Positions 11,185 to 40,009 of a DNA stretch of 64,000 nucleotides are shown here, piece after piece. Below the pieces are notes generated by a model. The model did not search any database. It saw nothing but the letters and a program-made list of their open reading frames with translations, and was not told where the DNA came from. A program made the translations under genes and the position numbers. This DNA is from Candidatus Desulfofervidus auxilii. GTDB lineage: Bacteria > Desulfobacterota > Desulfofervidia > Desulfofervidales > Desulfofervidaceae. How positions within the stretch are numbered: position 1 is the first letter of the stretch; each line of letters begins with the position of its first letter. The stretch lies in contig NZ_CP013015.1 in NCBI RefSeq assembly GCF_001577525.1, positions 504,227 through 568,226 of the forward strand, in the 5' to 3' direction.

Positions 11185-11790
11185 TTAAGTCTCTGAATCT
11201 CCTTGTTTAACTCTTTCCATAATTACATTATCAATAATACCATATTTTTTTGCATCTTCACTGCTCATATAAAAGTCTCTTTCTGTATCTTCTTCTATTC
11301 TAGATAAGGGTTGTCCCGTATGTTTTGCTAAAATTTTATTTATCTCTGCCCTCAGCCGCAAAATCTCTCTAGCCTGTATTTCCACTTCTGTTGCTTGTCC
11401 TTGAAACCCTCCTAAAGGCTGATGGATCAGAATCCGTGCATGGGGAAGTGCGTATCTTCTACCTGGTGTTCCAGCAGCTAACAAAAGAGCACCCATACTA
11501 GCAGCTTGACCCACACAATAGGTACATACTGGTGCTTTTATATACTGCATGGTATCATAAATGGCCATCCCTGCTGTAACCAACCCTCCAGGAGAGTTGA
11601 TATAAAAGTGAACTTCTTTATCAGGGTCTTGGAACTCCAAAAAAAGCAATTGAGCTATTATGAGGTTAGCAATAGCGTCATCTATTGGACTCCCCAAAAG
11701 GATAATACGGTCTTTTAACAATCGAGAGTAAATATCATAAGCCCTCTCTCCTCGTCCTGTTTGTTCAATCACAATGGGAATTAAATTCAT
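11185..11790 (-). CDS. clpP: ATP-dependent Clp protease proteolytic subunit
   Basis: A serine peptidase forming the 14-mer chamber used by ClpX. It is 201 residues long, with nucleophile Ser98 ([14 protein letters not shown]) and His123 ([11 protein letters not shown]); the aspartate lies in the following helix region [15 protein letters not shown] short N-terminal propeptide may be removed. Its ATG overlaps the trigger-factor stop by four bases (ATGA), showing translational coupling. Confidence 0.97.
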
Positions 11791-13118
11791 TTTTCCACCT
11801 CATTTTGTTTCACATCTTCTCTCACTGTTTTTTTCTCCTGTTTATTTATTTCTTCTCTGCTAACTTCTTTTATGTTTGCATGTTCTTTGAGAAAAACAAG
11901 CGTTTTTTCACCTACAATTCTGGTTTTAATCCGAGTTATAACATAAGGAGTATGCATTTTTTCTAAAGGCACCTTTAAATTATCTGCCAGTAATTTTAAC
12001 TCTTCTTCCACTTCCTGTTCTTCAACATCAATATTTTCTTTCTTGGCAATGGCACTTAAAATAAGTTGACCTTTCACCTTCAAGACTGCATCAGGATATA
12101 AGTCTTTTCTTAATTTATCCAAGTCTAAGGATGCACGCACCTCAGGAGTAGTAAATTGAGTAGCCCTCTCTATCATACTTTTCAATTCCTCTTCAACCAA
12201 ACTTTCTGGAAGTTCAACATCCACTTTCTCTGCCAGAGAATTAAGCACATAATTTTTAATATATTCATCTCTAATCTTTTCTTTCCTTAGTTTTATTCGC
12301 TCCTTAAGGTCTTTTTTTAGTGCTTCTAAGTTTTGATAATCACCTATTGTTTTAGCAAACTCATCATCTAAATCAGGTAATACTTTCTCCTTCGCATCTT
12401 TTACAAATAAATGGAGCTCTATTTCTTTACCAGCCATTTTCTCATTCTGGTAATCTTTGGGATAATGAAGTTTAACCACTTTTTTATCACCAATGCTAGC
12501 CCCTATCAATTTTTTTTCTATATCTTCATTAATCTGTTTTTTCCCTAATTCTACCATATAGTCTGTGGCTTTAAAATCTTGTAAGGGAGTTTCGTCCATA
12601 TAACCTTGAAAGTCAAGTATCACATAATCTCCTACTTTTAATGGTCTCTGTTCTTCTATTTTTTTTAATTCAGCATGGGTTTCTCTAAGGGCGTTTAATT
12701 CTTTTTCTACCTCTTCATCCGTAACTTCTATGGGAGTAACTTTTACACTTACACCTTTATACTCTGGCAATTCAAACTCTGGGAGCACTTCTATAGTAAC
12801 TGCATATTTGAATACCTTTCCTTCTCTGATAGTCTCTGGTTGGATAGAGGTTTCTTTTATGGGCAACAGTTGAGTTTCTTTCAATGCCTCAGGATAAGTT
12901 TTTTCAATAAGATTGGATAAAGCCTGATTAAGAATTTCATTACGATATAATGATTTAACCACAGACATGGGTACTTTTCCAGGACGAAACCCTTTTATTT
13001 TTGCCTTTTTTTGCATCATTCTATAAAGACTTCCAATTTCTGCATCTACCTTTTCCTTCGGTATAGTCACTTCCAACTTACACCGTGCAGGACTAATTTT
13101 TTCGACTTTAACTTCCAT
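11787..13118 (-). CDS. tig: trigger factor (ribosome-associated chaperone and prolyl isomerase)
   Basis: Binds nascent chains at the ribosomal exit tunnel. It is 443 residues from [13 protein letters not shown]. The ribosome-docking signature is [13 protein letters not shown]; the central FKBP-type domain contains [15 protein letters not shown]; the rest is the helical chaperone domain, ending in a lysine/glutamate-rich tail. The open frame continues 32 codons upstream, but that extension (beginning MAELADAPDLGSGGYS) is the translation of the neighbouring tRNA-Leu and is not protein. A GAGGG site five bases before the ATG at 13118 fixes the start. Confidence 0.96.
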
Positions 13119-13136
13119 ATTTCCCTCATTTTCATT

Positions 13137-13220
13137 TGGTGCGAGAGGCGGGACTCGAACCCGCACGGAATAACCACCAGATCCTAAGTCTGGCGCGTCT
13201 GCCAATTCCGCCACCCTCGC
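13137..13220 (-). tRNA. tRNA-Leu (anticodon UAG)
   Basis: Read on the minus strand, the sequence folds as a class II tRNA. The acceptor GCGAGGG (from 13220) pairs with CTCTCGC ending at 13141, with one G-T pair. The anticodon stem CCAGA/TCTGG encloses the loop CTTAGGA, giving anticodon TAG, followed by a long variable arm and a T loop GGTTCGAGTCCC. Discriminator A and an encoded CCA occupy 13140-13137. It lies 18 bases upstream of the tig start codon. Confidence 0.96.
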
Positions 13221-19972: not shown

Positions 19973-20992
19973 ATGAAAAAGCACATTTTTTTAAGGTTGG
20001 TATGTGGTTTTGGCTTTATTGTATTGATTTTGGGTTTCTCTCGTTGTGCACATAGAGGTTTTGTAAAAGCAACATTACCTACCATTGAGGGGGCAAGTTA
20101 TGTAGGTAGTGAAACTTGTGCTAGTTGCCATGAGGAATTATATGCAGAGTTTAAAACCTCTATTCATGGACGTCTGGCCTCGTTTGAGGCAATAGGAATA
20201 AAGAAGGGCTGTGAAGGGTGCCATGGTCCAGGAAGTATCCATTCAGAAGAAGGCGACCCAGAAAAGATTTTGAGATTTGGCAAATTAAATTATGCAGAAA
20301 AATCAGAAATATGTCTTCAGTGTCACACTCAGTCATATTGGCGAACTAGTGAGCATGCTCTAAACGGAAATGCCTGTAGTGATTGCCATAAGATACATAA
20401 TCCGAAGGAGAAAAAACTTTTGGTTAAAACTGAGCCATCACTTTGCTATGAGTGTCATCAAGATATAAGGATGAAAACCCTTTATCCTTCTCACCATCCT
20501 ATCTGGGAATCTGAAAGGACAGGCAGAAGAAGGATGACCTGTAATAATTGCCACGATGTCCATGGCTCTCCTATTAAGTCTTTAAAGACAGAAGAAAGAA
20601 TAAATGACCTCTGTTTTAAATGCCATGCCGGTTATCAAGGACCTTTCATCTATGAGCATGAGCCAGTAGTAGAAGATTGCACTATCTGTCATGAACCTCA
20701 TGGAACAGTGGCAAACAATCTTTTAAAACAAAATGAACCATTTGTTTGCTTGCAGTGTCATGAGTTCCATTTTCATGCAGGTAAAGAAAGTGGAGTGGGA
20801 GAACTTAGTGTTCCTGAGCATAAAGATATCTTAATAGGAAATTCTGGAGAAACACCATACACTGGACCATTTCCTGCTCAGGGATTTAAAATGGCGTTTA
20901 CTACAAAGTGCACTCAGTGTCATTCCCAAGTTCATGGTTCAGACCTTCCTTCCTTGTCAGTGCCTGGGCAAGGAAGGGCATTAACTAGATAA
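19973..20992 (+). CDS. decaheme c-type cytochrome, MtrA/DmsE family
   Basis: A secreted electron carrier of 339 residues. An N-terminal hydrophobic signal (about 8-24) is followed by YVGSETCASCHEELYAEF, the usual start of DmsE/MtrA decaheme proteins. Ten CXXCH motifs run from C49 to about C313. In Shewanella and Geobacter such proteins sit inside an MtrB-type porin and carry electrons from the periplasm to the surface; the next gene is exactly such a porin, 16 bases downstream. The Cys in FSRC is not a good lipobox. A strong ribosome site (GGGGAGGGGG) marks the start. Confidence 0.92.
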   Translation: MKKHIFLRLVCGFGFIVLILGFSRCAHRGFVKATLPTIEGASYVGSETCASCHEELYAEFKTSIHGRLASFEAIGIKKGCEGCHGPGSIHSEEGDPEKILRFGKLNYAEKSEICLQCHTQSYWRTSEHALNGNACSDCHKIHNPKEKKLLVKTEPSLCYECHQDIRMKTLYPSHHPIWESERTGRRRMTCNNCHDVHGSPIKSLKTEERINDLCFKCHAGYQGPFIYEHEPVVEDCTICHEPHGTVANNLLKQNEPFVCLQCHEFHFHAGKESGVGELSVPEHKDILIGNSGETPYTGPFPAQGFKMAFTTKCTQCHSQVHGSDLPSLSVPGQGRALTR

Positions 20993-21008: not shown

Positions 21009-22802
21009 ATGATTAAAAAAATAGGTATATGTTTGATGGTGTTTGTCTGTATCCTATTTGTATCTTTAAGCTTTTCTGAAGAAAATAATAAAGATGTAAA
21101 TATAAAAGTTAAGACTGGAATTCATGGTGTAGGGGTAGATGGAAAGACCAAAGTAAAAGTGGGAGAATATGATGTTTTAGATACGGGAGTTAATCCTGAT
21201 GTTAGCTTTTCTTTAGATGGCAGGATAGAAAATACCTACTTTTCAGGCGAAGCCACCTATTATGAAGATGATGACCAGCAATACTCTGGTAATATAGACA
21301 TGCAAAGATATGTGACTGAAGAATTTAGCTATTATAGATTTTATCACTGGCTTGATCATGACCCATTAACCAATCTCCGTGCAGCCGCTACTAATGCAAA
21401 AGAAGGGGGCAAAGTCATACCACCTTTGGTAACATATACTGACCTTGAGCCATCTACCGAATATGGAATAATGCGCTCTGAGATGGAGAGTAAGACCACG
21501 GTCAGGGTTCCAATGGACTTACCTTTTGAATTAAAGGCATTCTTTAACTACAGAAAAGAAATGAGGAAGGGTAGAAGACAGGCCCTGACCATGGGTGGGA
21601 AGTGTTCTGCCTGTCATGTAGTAAGTAACGGTAAAGTAATCAATGAACATATTGAAGACTACAATCCTGGATTTGTTGCCACCTTCAGGAATAAATCAGT
21701 TCATGCCAGTTTTAGTTATGAATTTTTAGATAGAAAGTTTGGTGAAGATGCCTTAGCTCCTGAAATTTATTATGATGACCCAGTTCACCCTGGTGGGAAA
21801 GGATATATTTTTGATGATAGGATTCAATATCAAGATGCTAAACTACCATACAACCAACTTCCAAAGTCAAGAAAATTTTCACATAAGGCAAAACTTAATA
21901 CCTATATTCCTTCTATGAGTACAGGAATGTTTTTAGGTGGTATATATTCACGCACAGAAAATGAAGAACAAGACTTACAATTTAATCTTAAAAGTATCTT
22001 TTCTAGACTATCTAGTTCTATAATTCCTGGTCTGGCTATGAATGTTCACTTTAGGTGGCTAGACTTAGCCAATGAAAGTATATTTGTAGATACCAATGAG
22101 CCAACAGGTATTGCTGGTCCAAATGCCGGGCATACTTATGCTGACCCTTCACACGGAGGGAGTTATAATGCAAATGACCCCGACTTTGTGAGAGATTCAG
22201 CTATGTCTAGAAAACAATACGAAGTGGGTTTTGATGCTGCCTATCTGCTTATGAAAGGAATCACTTTAAGAGGGAGCTATCTTTGGAAACAGATTGAGAG
22301 AGACCACTATTATCTCTCAGGTGAAAATGAGACAGAAGAACATCGTCTAAAATTGGGTATAAATGCCAGATTTACACCTCCTATTATTAAAAAACCTATA
22401 AGAACCAGCTTAAGTTATAAATATCAAAGTATCTATGCTCCATTTGCTAATGAGAATGCAGCGTTTGTGGGAGAAGAATCAACTATTGCTGGAGGTCCAT
22501 TTAATGGAACTCAATATTGGGAACTCCAAGAGATGAGAAATAAAACACTCACCAATTTGCCCACCAGGAGAGACGAAATTAGATTTGATACTACAATTCC
22601 TATCTTGGATAGGCTTTCAATTACTGGTTTTTATCGTTTTATGAAAGAAGAAAATGATTCAGTGGGTTGGAAAAACTGGACCCATATGCCTTCTATAAGC
22701 CTTTGGTATGCCCCATTTGATAAGTTAAACTTCAGCATGTCTTATCTTTATAGGCATGGGAAGACAACTAATCCACTTTGTGTGCCCATTTATGATGGGT
22801 GA
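21009..22802 (+). CDS. MtrB/PioB-like outer-membrane porin, portion before an in-frame TGA
   Basis: The first 597 residues of a beta-barrel that would house the MtrA-like cytochrome. A signal peptide (1-23, ending SLSFSEEN) is followed by alternating aromatic/polar strands typical of MtrB-type barrels. Around residue 198 there is one CSACH motif, a heme-binding site unusual for the barrel itself. The frame ends in a TGA at 22800-22802, yet the same frame continues for 144 codons with matching barrel strands. So the gene is either interrupted by a nonsense mutation or sequencing error, or the TGA is read through. The ribosome site GAGGAGGG precedes the ATG. Confidence 0.85.
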   Translation: MIKKIGICLMVFVCILFVSLSFSEENNKDVNIKVKTGIHGVGVDGKTKVKVGEYDVLDTGVNPDVSFSLDGRIENTYFSGEATYYEDDDQQYSGNIDMQRYVTEEFSYYRFYHWLDHDPLTNLRAAATNAKEGGKVIPPLVTYTDLEPSTEYGIMRSEMESKTTVRVPMDLPFELKAFFNYRKEMRKGRRQALTMGGKCSACHVVSNGKVINEHIEDYNPGFVATFRNKSVHASFSYEFLDRKFGEDALAPEIYYDDPVHPGGKGYIFDDRIQYQDAKLPYNQLPKSRKFSHKAKLNTYIPSMSTGMFLGGIYSRTENEEQDLQFNLKSIFSRLSSSIIPGLAMNVHFRWLDLANESIFVDTNEPTGIAGPNAGHTYADPSHGGSYNANDPDFVRDSAMSRKQYEVGFDAAYLLMKGITLRGSYLWKQIERDHYYLSGENETEEHRLKLGINARFTPPIIKKPIRTSLSYKYQSIYAPFANENAAFVGEESTIAGGPFNGTQYWELQEMRNKTLTNLPTRRDEIRFDTTIPILDRLSITGFYRFMKEENDSVGWKNWTHMPSISLWYAPFDKLNFSMSYLYRHGKTTNPLCVPIYDG

Positions 22803-23234
22803 GCTGGTGGAACATGGACGAACCTGTATGGTTCAAAGATAGCAAATGGGCATTATTTTATGGAGGGTCACACTGGAGTTTTTAATATAAATTATATACC
22901 CACTAAAAAACTTAGTTTTAACATAGCTTCTGCCTATACTGATTCAAAGGCACACATAGAAGCCTTTAATTTCGCAGGCCCATTAGAATATGCCCCTGGA
23001 ACCGATGGAGCACGTGAGCGTTATTACAATTATGATTTTTCAAATGTAGCGGATTATTCTGACTTACATATAAGGGAATTGGACTTAACACTTTCTGCCT
23101 CTTATATAATAAATAAAAACTTCGCCCTTTCTGCAGGATACAATTACCTTTATTATGGAGATGCAGACCCATACCTTTATGATGGAACAGGAAGGGCTCA
23201 TATAGGAATGCTCACCTTGAATTATTGGTATTAA
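22803..23234 (+). CDS. MtrB/PioB-like porin, C-terminal continuation after the TGA
   Basis: In frame with the preceding portion. After the TGA it reads AGGTWTNLYGSKIANGHYF, then MEGHTGVFNINYIPTKKLSF, and ends MLTLNYWY with the terminal aromatic residue expected for an outer-membrane barrel. An internal ATG at 22860 could start a 124-residue fragment, but there is no ribosome site and such a fragment would lack a signal peptide. Joined, the protein would be 741 residues, within the range of MtrB-family barrels. No other stop or frame change was found in this part. Confidence 0.8.
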   Translation, partial: AGGTWTNLYGSKIANGHYFMEGHTGVFNINYIPTKKLSFNIASAYTDSKAHIEAFNFAGPLEYAPGTDGARERYYNYDFSNVADYSDLHIRELDLTLSASYIINKNFALSAGYNYLYYGDADPYLYDGTGRAHIGMLTLNYWY

Positions 23235-29637: not shown

Positions 29638-31710
29638 ATGAAGTATCTGAGTTTAGTAATGATTTTGTGTATTTTGCCTACTTGTGCTTTAGCACAAGAT
29701 TTAAGCGGCACAGCAGATATCTCTTATAATAAATCATGGGCAGAATCAGATGGAGAGAAAACTCAAACCTGGAGCCTCTTTCAGACCTATTATTTAAATT
29801 ATAGCTCTTATTTAACGCCTGCTCTTATGCCTAGTGTGGGTATTCGCTATAGTCGCAAGGATAGTGATATGCCTGACCAAGAGATAATCTATCCTTTTGT
29901 AAATTTGGGTTTGAACAATAAATATGTTTCTGGCAATCTCAGTTATAATTATATGAATGTGAAAACCGAAGATCAACCTAGTCTTACTAATTCTTTCTGG
30001 AGTGTGAATCTAACTAGCCAATTAGAAGAATGGCCCAAAATGAATTTTCAATATACACAATCCAGAGAATATGACGAAAAACATAAGATAAATAGCTCTT
30101 TTGAACATGAAATAGATACCAAATCTACTAGCCTTTTAAGTGGTGTCACATACCAATATAGTATTTTTGATATGATGTATAATTATATGAGAAGTACTTC
30201 TTTAGATTATTTAACAGAAACAGACACCAAAAGTAATAACCATATTGGACGTCTGGGAATACATAAGACCTTCTGGAAGAATCGGATTTCCTTTTCTGCA
30301 GATGGGGGTTATAATTATTATGATTCAACTACTACCATACCAGAAGCAGGAGAAATAGAACAAAAACGCCTAGCAAAAGACGGCTTTTATGGTGTAGATA
30401 GCTCTCCCGAACACAGTAGTTTATCCACTGCTACTAGCCTTATTGATGGAAATCAGGATGTTTCTGTGTTAACTGTGCAAGAATATATGAATGTAGGAGT
30501 GGATCTCTTTTATCCCCAGACAGTAGATACTATTTATATTTATACTAATAAAGATTATGTTTATGACCCTGCCATTCCTTCAGAAGTGGTAGAATGGGCA
30601 GTTTACTATAGCAATGAAGAGGAACAGCCAAGAACATGGACAATTATTACTAACAATGCCTCTTTTTCCTATGATGAAATATATCATCGTTTTGAAATCA
30701 GTTTTGCTGCTCAAGAGGCAAGATATTTTAAGGTAGTCCATTATCCAGGCACTACCAGTCCTTCCTTTCAAATAACAGAGATAGAAACATATGGACTTGA
30801 GTATGTAGAGCAAAAATCTAAATCTGTCTCTAAGACCTATACAGGAAATTGTAGTTTATCTATACGTCCTTTGGAAAAATGGACTACTGCTTATTATCTA
30901 TCTTATTATCGAACTGATACCTTCCCTGAAGCTAACCTGAATTATACCTTAAGCCATGGGGTAAGTATCATAGGTGACCTCTCCAAGTATTTTTTACTTA
31001 CTTTGAGCTATCAAAGAACACGCTCTCGCACTCTAGAAACTATTACTAAAGTAGAGGCTTATACATTCAATTGGCGTTCTAATCCTTTAGAAACCTTAGA
31101 CACCACCCTCACCTTAAGTCATACAGAAACAGAAGAAAATGAAGAATTGATTTCTAAAGTTAATACTCTGGTTTTTAACTCTATTTTTATGTTGTGGAAA
31201 GATATAGATGTAAATTGGAACTTTAATATATCACATGCTAAAAACGAGCGTATTCCTAAAACCAAGTCTTTATCTATTTATTCTGACCTTTATCTCAGGG
31301 CTTTATTGACTAAAACCCTTTCTTGGGATATAGGTTATGACCAAAGCTGGCAGCGGACTACTAATGAAGAAACTATTAAGACTACTTATACTAACATTTA
31401 TAGTACCTTGGTCTATACTCCTTCTTCTCGACTTTATGGAAGGATTTTTTTACAATACTCCGCTGCAGAAGAAGAAAATAGATTATTACATGAATATAGT
31501 GTAGGATGTTTTATCACTCCTAAGGTGCAGATAAATGCTACCAGCAGTTTTATAGAGGCAGACACAGACCAGATGACCCATAGTATTGATATTAACTGGG
31601 ATATAGCCAGGTGGGCCAGTTTTAGAATGGGATATAGTTATTCACATAGTAATAATGATACTACGGAAAAAAGTCATAATTTTTATTCCCGTTTTTCAGC
31701 AAGTTTTTAA
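29638..31710 (+). CDS. outer-membrane beta-barrel with discoidin-like insertion (putative electron conduit porin)
   Basis: 690 residues. The signal peptide (1-20) ends CALAQ-D. Amphipathic strands rich in Tyr/Ser/Thr fill about 25-245 and 395-690, and the chain ends RFSASF with the C-terminal Phe of outer-membrane barrels. Between about residues 255 and 390 lies a soluble beta-sandwich-like segment (VDTIYIYTNKDYVYDP, then ARYFKVVHYP and FQITEIETYG), which resembles an F5/8 type C (discoidin) fold. It starts directly after the propeller gene without a gap. Its place among cytochrome genes suggests the porin of an Oet-like conduit; that is inference. Confidence 0.78.
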   Translation: MKYLSLVMILCILPTCALAQDLSGTADISYNKSWAESDGEKTQTWSLFQTYYLNYSSYLTPALMPSVGIRYSRKDSDMPDQEIIYPFVNLGLNNKYVSGNLSYNYMNVKTEDQPSLTNSFWSVNLTSQLEEWPKMNFQYTQSREYDEKHKINSSFEHEIDTKSTSLLSGVTYQYSIFDMMYNYMRSTSLDYLTETDTKSNNHIGRLGIHKTFWKNRISFSADGGYNYYDSTTTIPEAGEIEQKRLAKDGFYGVDSSPEHSSLSTATSLIDGNQDVSVLTVQEYMNVGVDLFYPQTVDTIYIYTNKDYVYDPAIPSEVVEWAVYYSNEEEQPRTWTIITNNASFSYDEIYHRFEISFAAQEARYFKVVHYPGTTSPSFQITEIETYGLEYVEQKSKSVSKTYTGNCSLSIRPLEKWTTAYYLSYYRTDTFPEANLNYTLSHGVSIIGDLSKYFLLTLSYQRTRSRTLETITKVEAYTFNWRSNPLETLDTTLTLSHTETEENEELISKVNTLVFNSIFMLWKDIDVNWNFNISHAKNERIPKTKSLSIYSDLYLRALLTKTLSWDIGYDQSWQRTTNEETIKTTYTNIYSTLVYTPSSRLYGRIFLQYSAAEEENRLLHEYSVGCFITPKVQINATSSFIEADTDQMTHSIDINWDIARWASFRMGYSYSHSNNDTTEKSHNFYSRFSASF

Positions 31711-39137: not shown

Positions 39138-40009
39138 GGATTTATGGGTTATTATTTCTGTTTGTATTTTGGAGTCTTTGTCCTCGACTATCTTGGGCCG
39201 GTCTTAAGGGAAAGATAATAGCAGTAATTTACGGTGGAGAAAAAATAGGAGCCTTTAATCAACCCCAAGCAATGTATTTTGACCCTCAACGTAAAAGGCT
39301 CTATCTGGTGGATACCTTAAATGACCGCCTTCTTTCCTTTGATAATCAATATAAGTTTTTATCTGCTTTTAATGCTGGAGGGAAACTCAAAACCCCTTTA
39401 GCTATGGTAAGAGACAGAAAAGGACACATTATTGTTACCAATAAAGGTGACAAATCAGTCCTTATTATAAACGTGAAGGAGAAGAAGATAAAATCGCTTG
39501 ACCTAAGTCATATTTATCCGCCTGTGGTCCCTCACTCTCTAGCCATAGCTTCCAATGGTTGCCTTTGTTTATTAGATAAAGCATACAAGCGTATCCTTAT
39601 TTTTTCTCCTGAGACATACCAAGTTCAAAAAATAATTGAGGAAGAAGGATCCAGTGGATTCAGTGATATAAAGGTAAATAATAATTTAGTCTATGCCTTA
39701 GACCCCATTTTTAAAAAAGTCTTCATCTATAGCCAAAAAGGTAATGTTGTTGGTTCTATTCTCCTTAAAGGTGTAGCTTTCCCCATAAGTTTAGCTGTAG
39801 ATAGAAGAGAACACTTATATATTTTAGATAGACATAAAGGAAAAGTTTTTATTTTTGATAAACAAGGAAAACCTATGGGAGAAATAGGGAAAAGAGGTTG
39901 GAAAGAGGGGAAACTTTATTGCCCTGGTTATATTTTTATAGACAATAAAAACATCCTCTATGTAGTAGACACAGGAAATAACAGAGTAGAAGTATTTAAG
40001 ATAAAATGA
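39116..40009 (+). CDS. NHL-repeat beta-propeller protein, secreted
   Basis: 297 residues from ATG 39116; AGGAG lies 11 bases ahead, and a TTG at 39107 is too close to it. A signal peptide (FLFVFWSLCPRLSWAG) is followed by six NHL-type blades, for example FNQPQAMYFDPQRKRLYLVD and ILYVVDTGNNRVEVF. Such propellers bind proteins or sugars. In cytochrome clusters they are frequent companions with unproven roles. Its sequence is related to the next gene. Confidence 0.8.
   Translation: MSQDKHIRIYGLLFLFVFWSLCPRLSWAGLKGKIIAVIYGGEKIGAFNQPQAMYFDPQRKRLYLVDTLNDRLLSFDNQYKFLSAFNAGGKLKTPLAMVRDRKGHIIVTNKGDKSVLIINVKEKKIKSLDLSHIYPPVVPHSLAIASNGCLCLLDKAYKRILIFSPETYQVQKIIEEEGSSGFSDIKVNNNLVYALDPIFKKVFIYSQKGNVVGSILLKGVAFPISLAVDRREHLYILDRHKGKVFIFDKQGKPMGEIGKRGWKEGKLYCPGYIFIDNKNILYVVDTGNNRVEVFKIK

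Follow-up and report, generated by a model that had tools for sequence, protein, structure and literature searches.

The window, a stretch of 64,000 nucleotides from the genome of Candidatus Desulfofervidus auxilii, carries a decaheme cytochrome c gene directly upstream of an outer-membrane porin gene whose reading frame contains a single TGA. The features on which the analysis turns are the following.

19973-20992, forward strand: gene of the decaheme cytochrome c partner, GSU2203/OmcK family, a DmsE/MtrA-type relative (by NF041028 and TIGR03508)
21009-23234, forward strand: full-length porin gene, GSU2204/OmcL family, MtrB/PioB type (by Pfam, NCBIfam and the read-through frame)
21603-21617, forward strand: single c-haem motif CSACH inside the porin, residues 199-203 (by alignment)
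22779-22781, forward strand: codon of Cys591, partner in the C-x6-U motif (by homologue alignment)
22800-22802, forward strand: in-frame TGA, proposed codon of Sec598 (39 homologues have TGA at this column and two have TGC)
22820-22834, forward strand: predicted apical hairpin of a bacterial SECIS element (bSECIS), GAACC-UGUAU-GGUUC (by RNAalifold consensus, covariation and a recoding test)

A porin gene with one in-frame TGA and its decaheme neighbor

From 21009 the porin frame runs to a TAA stop at 23232-23234 and comprises 741 codons when the TGA is counted as selenocysteine (Sec), with 143 residues following the TGA and ending in the aromatic C-terminus NYWY. The first-pass annotation had described the TGA, in the context YDG-TGA-AGGTW, as the single lesion of an otherwise intact MtrB-like porin whose frame goes on to an aromatic C-terminus, and in each of these respects it agrees with the sequence. 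No second gene divided in this way, with long coding sequence on both sides, came out of a six-frame scan of the window; the one further long ORF pair lies at 40007, where one gene seems to end in the ordinary way before the next begins.

The porin matches the MtrB/PioB family of Pfam (PF11854, E = 1e-9) and falls below the curated cut-off of the MtrB/PioB subfamily TIGR03509 (28.4 versus 240 bits), and on these profile scores it is a relative within PF11854 that stands outside that subfamily. Against NCBIfam it scores 600.7 bits, over a curated cut-off of 350, with NF041027, the model titled “GSU2204 family CXXCH-containing (seleno)protein” (OmcL of Geobacter sulfurreducens); the match spans the full profile (residues 12-597) and ends at the last residue 5′ of the TGA. 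All aligned homologues that span this part of the protein keep the CxxCH motif, Sec-less ones included. A c-haem built into an outer-membrane barrel would be unusual in itself. A sequence search for relatives of solved structure returned none (best E = 0.25, an irrelevant match), and AlphaFold2 run on the full porin with a two-sequence input gave no usable fold (pLDDT 26).

The translation of the upstream gene contains ten CxxCH motifs and exceeds the cut-offs of both NF041028 (GSU2203/OmcK; 469.8 bits, cut-off 325) and TIGR03508 (DmsE-type decaheme; 235 bits, cut-off 192). The arrangement recurs in another genome (L016), where a homologous decaheme gene lies directly upstream of a porin gene with the same TGA.

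Elsewhere in the window, the longest trigger-factor ORF (11787-13214) has a tRNA gene, on the reverse strand (13140-13220), within its 5′ end, and the true start of trigger factor is therefore probably further downstream. A second large probable outer-membrane barrel of 690 aa (29638-31710), encoded after a beta-propeller protein, had no match in Pfam or NCBIfam.

Conservation of the TGA column and of the hairpin behind it

Homologues were sought in 395 genomes of the phylum and found in 49. Nearly all of the full-length best matches, which are 25-69% identical, contain exactly one TGA. Among the 53 homologous sequences fetched and aligned for the column count, 39 have TGA at the Sec column, two have Cys (TGC, in L053 and L058), and 12 have another residue or a gap, most of these with a shortened or absent loop. 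The 39 come from many families, and in them the frame is open to either side of the TGA. Cys, which commonly stands in for Sec, is the sole sense residue at this column where the flanking loop is kept. The first-pass annotation had suggested such an alignment, naming Trp, Gly or Arg at the column together with missing Sec genes as a refuting outcome; what is found is the opposite, Sec or Cys wherever the loop is kept, in a genome with SelB, tRNA-Sec and SelD.

In a maximum-likelihood phylogeny built from the longer homologues (48 sequences), the Sec label takes three changes, and both Cys forms fall inside the Sec clade. The two genomes with a Cys form, G046 and G327, also have a separate Sec-type copy (L057 and L036, respectively), and the Cys form there is therefore a paralogue rather than a replacement that followed loss of the Sec machinery. 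The position of Cys591, seven residues before Sec598, is more variable, with Cys in 27, Ser in 10 and Trp in two of the 39 Sec homologues, and a strict C-x6-U rule was dropped because Ser or Trp replaces Cys in 12 of the 39. Judged from this alignment, Sec598 is the better conserved member of the pair and Cys591 is not essential.

Twenty-five of the homologues align without gaps from the TGA onward, and RNAalifold finds in them one 5-bp hairpin with covariation, including compensatory changes (G-C/A-U/C-G) at the middle pair, 23:33, of the stem. In the present gene the stem pairs 22820-22824 with 22830-22834 and encloses the loop UGUAU (22825-22829), which lies 22 nt after the UGA and has G at its second position, followed by U. 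Such features agree with the published bacterial SECIS model (PMC13188914). The first-pass annotation had instead paired 22810-22813 with 22831-22834, which is not the conserved hairpin, and its view that the loop lacks a convincing bSECIS signature is not supported. The published model includes a free-energy limit of −7.5 kcal/mol (PMC13188914), against which the isolated hairpin of the present gene is weak, at −6.7 kcal/mol, and with more sequence it reaches −7.8 to −11.2 kcal/mol, the last value with 54-61 nt of context.

As a null for the hairpin, each sequence was recoded synonymously at its own codon usage, which preserves the protein. In the 25-homologue set, 120 of 125 stem pairs are formed, versus 76.6 ± 4.2 under recoding, a value that none of 2,000 trials reached; 20 stems are perfect, versus 0.8 expected. 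In the 14 remaining Sec homologues, on which the stem was not defined, the stem in its fixed register is often lost (32 of 70 pairs, the chance level), and a hairpin that is shifted by one base or differently composed stands at equal distance (e.g., CCCCAAGUUUUGGGG). The fixed register was dropped for one subclade, where the stem has moved by one base with new complementary sequence. A general test for any bSECIS-like hairpin lacked stringency, as chance alone would give 10 of 14, and a narrower rule was used instead: a stem of at least 5 bp and a loop of 3-6 nt that starts 21-23 nt after the UGA and has G within its first two positions. All 39 Sec homologues pass, versus 3.4 ± 1.7 under synonymous recoding (maximum 10 in 1,000 trials), a very large margin, although the rule was settled on with the sequences in view and the test is therefore not blind. 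A candidate hairpin is missing from one of the two Cys forms; that of the other is chance-like and lies at another distance.

Decoding machinery and competing explanations

The first-pass annotation had also called for a search for selA, selB and selC. The genome searched is a single contig of 2.54 Mb with stretches of N, at least 19 kb of them in one place (G000:C1:1805000-1824000). It contains SelB (392.8 bits), a tRNA-Sec with the anticodon UCA (TCA in DNA), and SelD (392.5 bits; G000:C1:304433-305359, L078:1396-2436 on the reverse strand). The SelD gene has an in-frame TGA of its own (KASG-U-AAKL) and is a second selenoprotein gene; SelD of the Sec type is a known form. Neither selA, present in five of five order-mates searched, nor the gene that adjoins it in relatives was found in the searched sequence, in which those 19 kb or more read N. 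Because the neighboring gene is missing as well and N stretches exist, selA presumably lies in the masked sequence. SepSecS, the archaeal-type route, was looked for in the genome since selA was missing, and was not found. Co-occurrence with SelB was dropped as evidence: SelB is present in 353 of the 395 phylum genomes (89%) and hardly discriminates. Three of the 37 TGA-bearing genomes, G012, G170 and G349, have no SelB match above the cut-off; SelB of G170 appears split across contigs, and G349 is 76% complete.

We place the probability that the TGA at 22800-22802 is read as selenocysteine at roughly 95%, on comparative evidence from sequences. SelB with Sec-tRNA would read the UGA, aided by the bSECIS hairpin that starts 17 nt downstream, and read-through would yield one continuous outer-membrane beta-barrel of 741 residues belonging to the GSU2204/OmcL family. 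The first-pass annotation had left three options side by side, namely Sec read-through, a nonsense mutation and a sequencing error; the first is strongly supported, and the other two are refuted by the 39 independently sequenced homologues with TGA.

Could the TGA be a true stop, with the downstream part made as a separate small protein and the barrel assembled from two pieces? An ATG at 22860 does open an ORF of 124 aa, and some termination at UGA would be expected if selenium were short. Yet the residues from the TGA to this ATG are conserved and in frame, the Cys and Sec-less homologues are continuous ORFs, and a two-piece barrel leaves both the hairpin and the Sec/Cys exchange unexplained, which makes it very unlikely. 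Another possibility is that read-through inserts not Sec but a near-cognate standard residue, Trp or Arg. UGA is the leakiest stop codon, and such leakiness speaks for this reading; however, Cys as the sole sense residue in the kept loop, together with a hairpin that fits the bSECIS model, leaves it even less credible.

A recent nonsense mutation would make the gene a pseudogene and leave the cluster without a functional porin, and a single in-frame stop in an intact frame, taken by itself, looks just like that. The same codon is nonetheless TGA in 39 homologues, a specific hairpin is conserved, and the 143 codons past the TGA are under purifying selection much like those before it (pN/pS 0.35 versus 0.33, against L019); we regard this explanation as exceedingly improbable. 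Since the TGA is conserved and selection after it resembles selection before it, neither a pseudogene nor an error can produce the pattern. Single-base errors are common in assemblies generally, but nothing specific favors a sequencing or assembly error at this site, and TGA at the same codon in independent assemblies of other genera makes that chance negligible. With Sec as the preferred reading of the codon, the porin gene is almost certainly intact and its product a selenium-containing outer-membrane protein. A whole porin gene removes the idea of a cluster without a porin; ordinary gene callers would end it at residue 597.

Known relatives, the probable conduit and the predicted place of Sec598

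Considering family and gene order, it is quite probable that the porin barrel houses or docks the decaheme encoded upstream, forming a trans-outer-membrane electron conduit in which OmcK would sit in the barrel within the outer membrane, as MtrA does in MtrB. The closest known system is the NF041027/OmcL family of G. sulfurreducens, which shares with the present porin the full-profile match, the porin's own CxxCH and an upstream GSU2203/OmcK decaheme, with no membership feature that differs. The porin thus belongs to a family already filed as selenoprotein (NF041027; PMC13188914). A 2026 review lists the GSU2204 family in its table of selenoproteins and gives no redox motif for it (PMC13188914), and the NF041027 model stops at the Sec codon. 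The present work adds to this the C-x6-U motif, RNA-level evidence in the form of the bSECIS hairpin, and the exchange of Sec and Cys. Both GSU2203 and GSU2204 show up-regulation in hematite and magnetite cultures (PMC4070692).

Two other systems invite comparison. The MtrB/PioB porins of MtrCAB type (PF11854, TIGR03509) likewise are outer-membrane barrels beside a DmsE/MtrA-like decaheme gene; unlike them, the present porin has its own CxxCH and Sec and scores under the TIGR03509 cut-off. The ExtKL system of Geobacter (PMC5877670) also pairs a porin with a predicted selenoprotein inside one electron-transfer cluster; compared by description, its Sec resides in a c-type cytochrome and that of the present cluster in the porin.

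The organism itself, as strain HotSeep-1, has been credited with an OmcKL conduit encoded by HS1_RS02760 and HS1_RS02765, homologues of OmcK and OmcL as are the genes described here, and expressed 4-fold above the oetABI conduit (PMC10553843). The two pairs are probably the same genes, given this homology and a locus-tag numbering that fits a position at 525 kb of the 2.54 Mb genome. Selenocysteine goes unmentioned in that publication, which treats the OmcK cytochrome as an extracellular one that lacks an adjacent periplasmic partner (PMC10553843); in contrast, the DmsE-type relationship found in the present analysis points to a role like that of MtrA.

Two predicted strands, KLNFSMSYLY and MEGHTGVFNINY, flank the Sec loop (about residues 585-616), and the turn that comes next, YIPTKK, is short and has no gaps. 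Strand counting from the C-terminal strand suggests that the loop is on the cell-surface side of the membrane, and by the same argument the CxxCH loop would be on that side too. Together, Sec598 and Cys591 might reversibly form a selenylsulphide. A redox function is the default view of the chemistry of Sec598; its likeliest role at the surface, tentatively and at somewhat less than even odds, would be that of a group at the conduit's outer mouth that is redox-active or protects against redox damage. It is a good deal more doubtful that Sec598, with Cys591 or the porin c-haem, is a catalytic or electron-relay center at the conduit mouth that makes extracellular electron transfer selenium-dependent.

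For the family, the RNA-level test shows that UGA recoding in these porins is real, and the conserved motif, mostly C-x6-U with Sec/Cys exchange, provides a handle for functional work. If the genes are those of the HotSeep-1 OmcKL system, then of the outer-membrane conduits of this organism the one with the stronger expression contains a Sec that its published account leaves unmentioned. Should Sec598 indeed act as a relay at the conduit mouth, the uptake of electrons by Ca. Desulfofervidus from its archaeal partner would depend on selenium.
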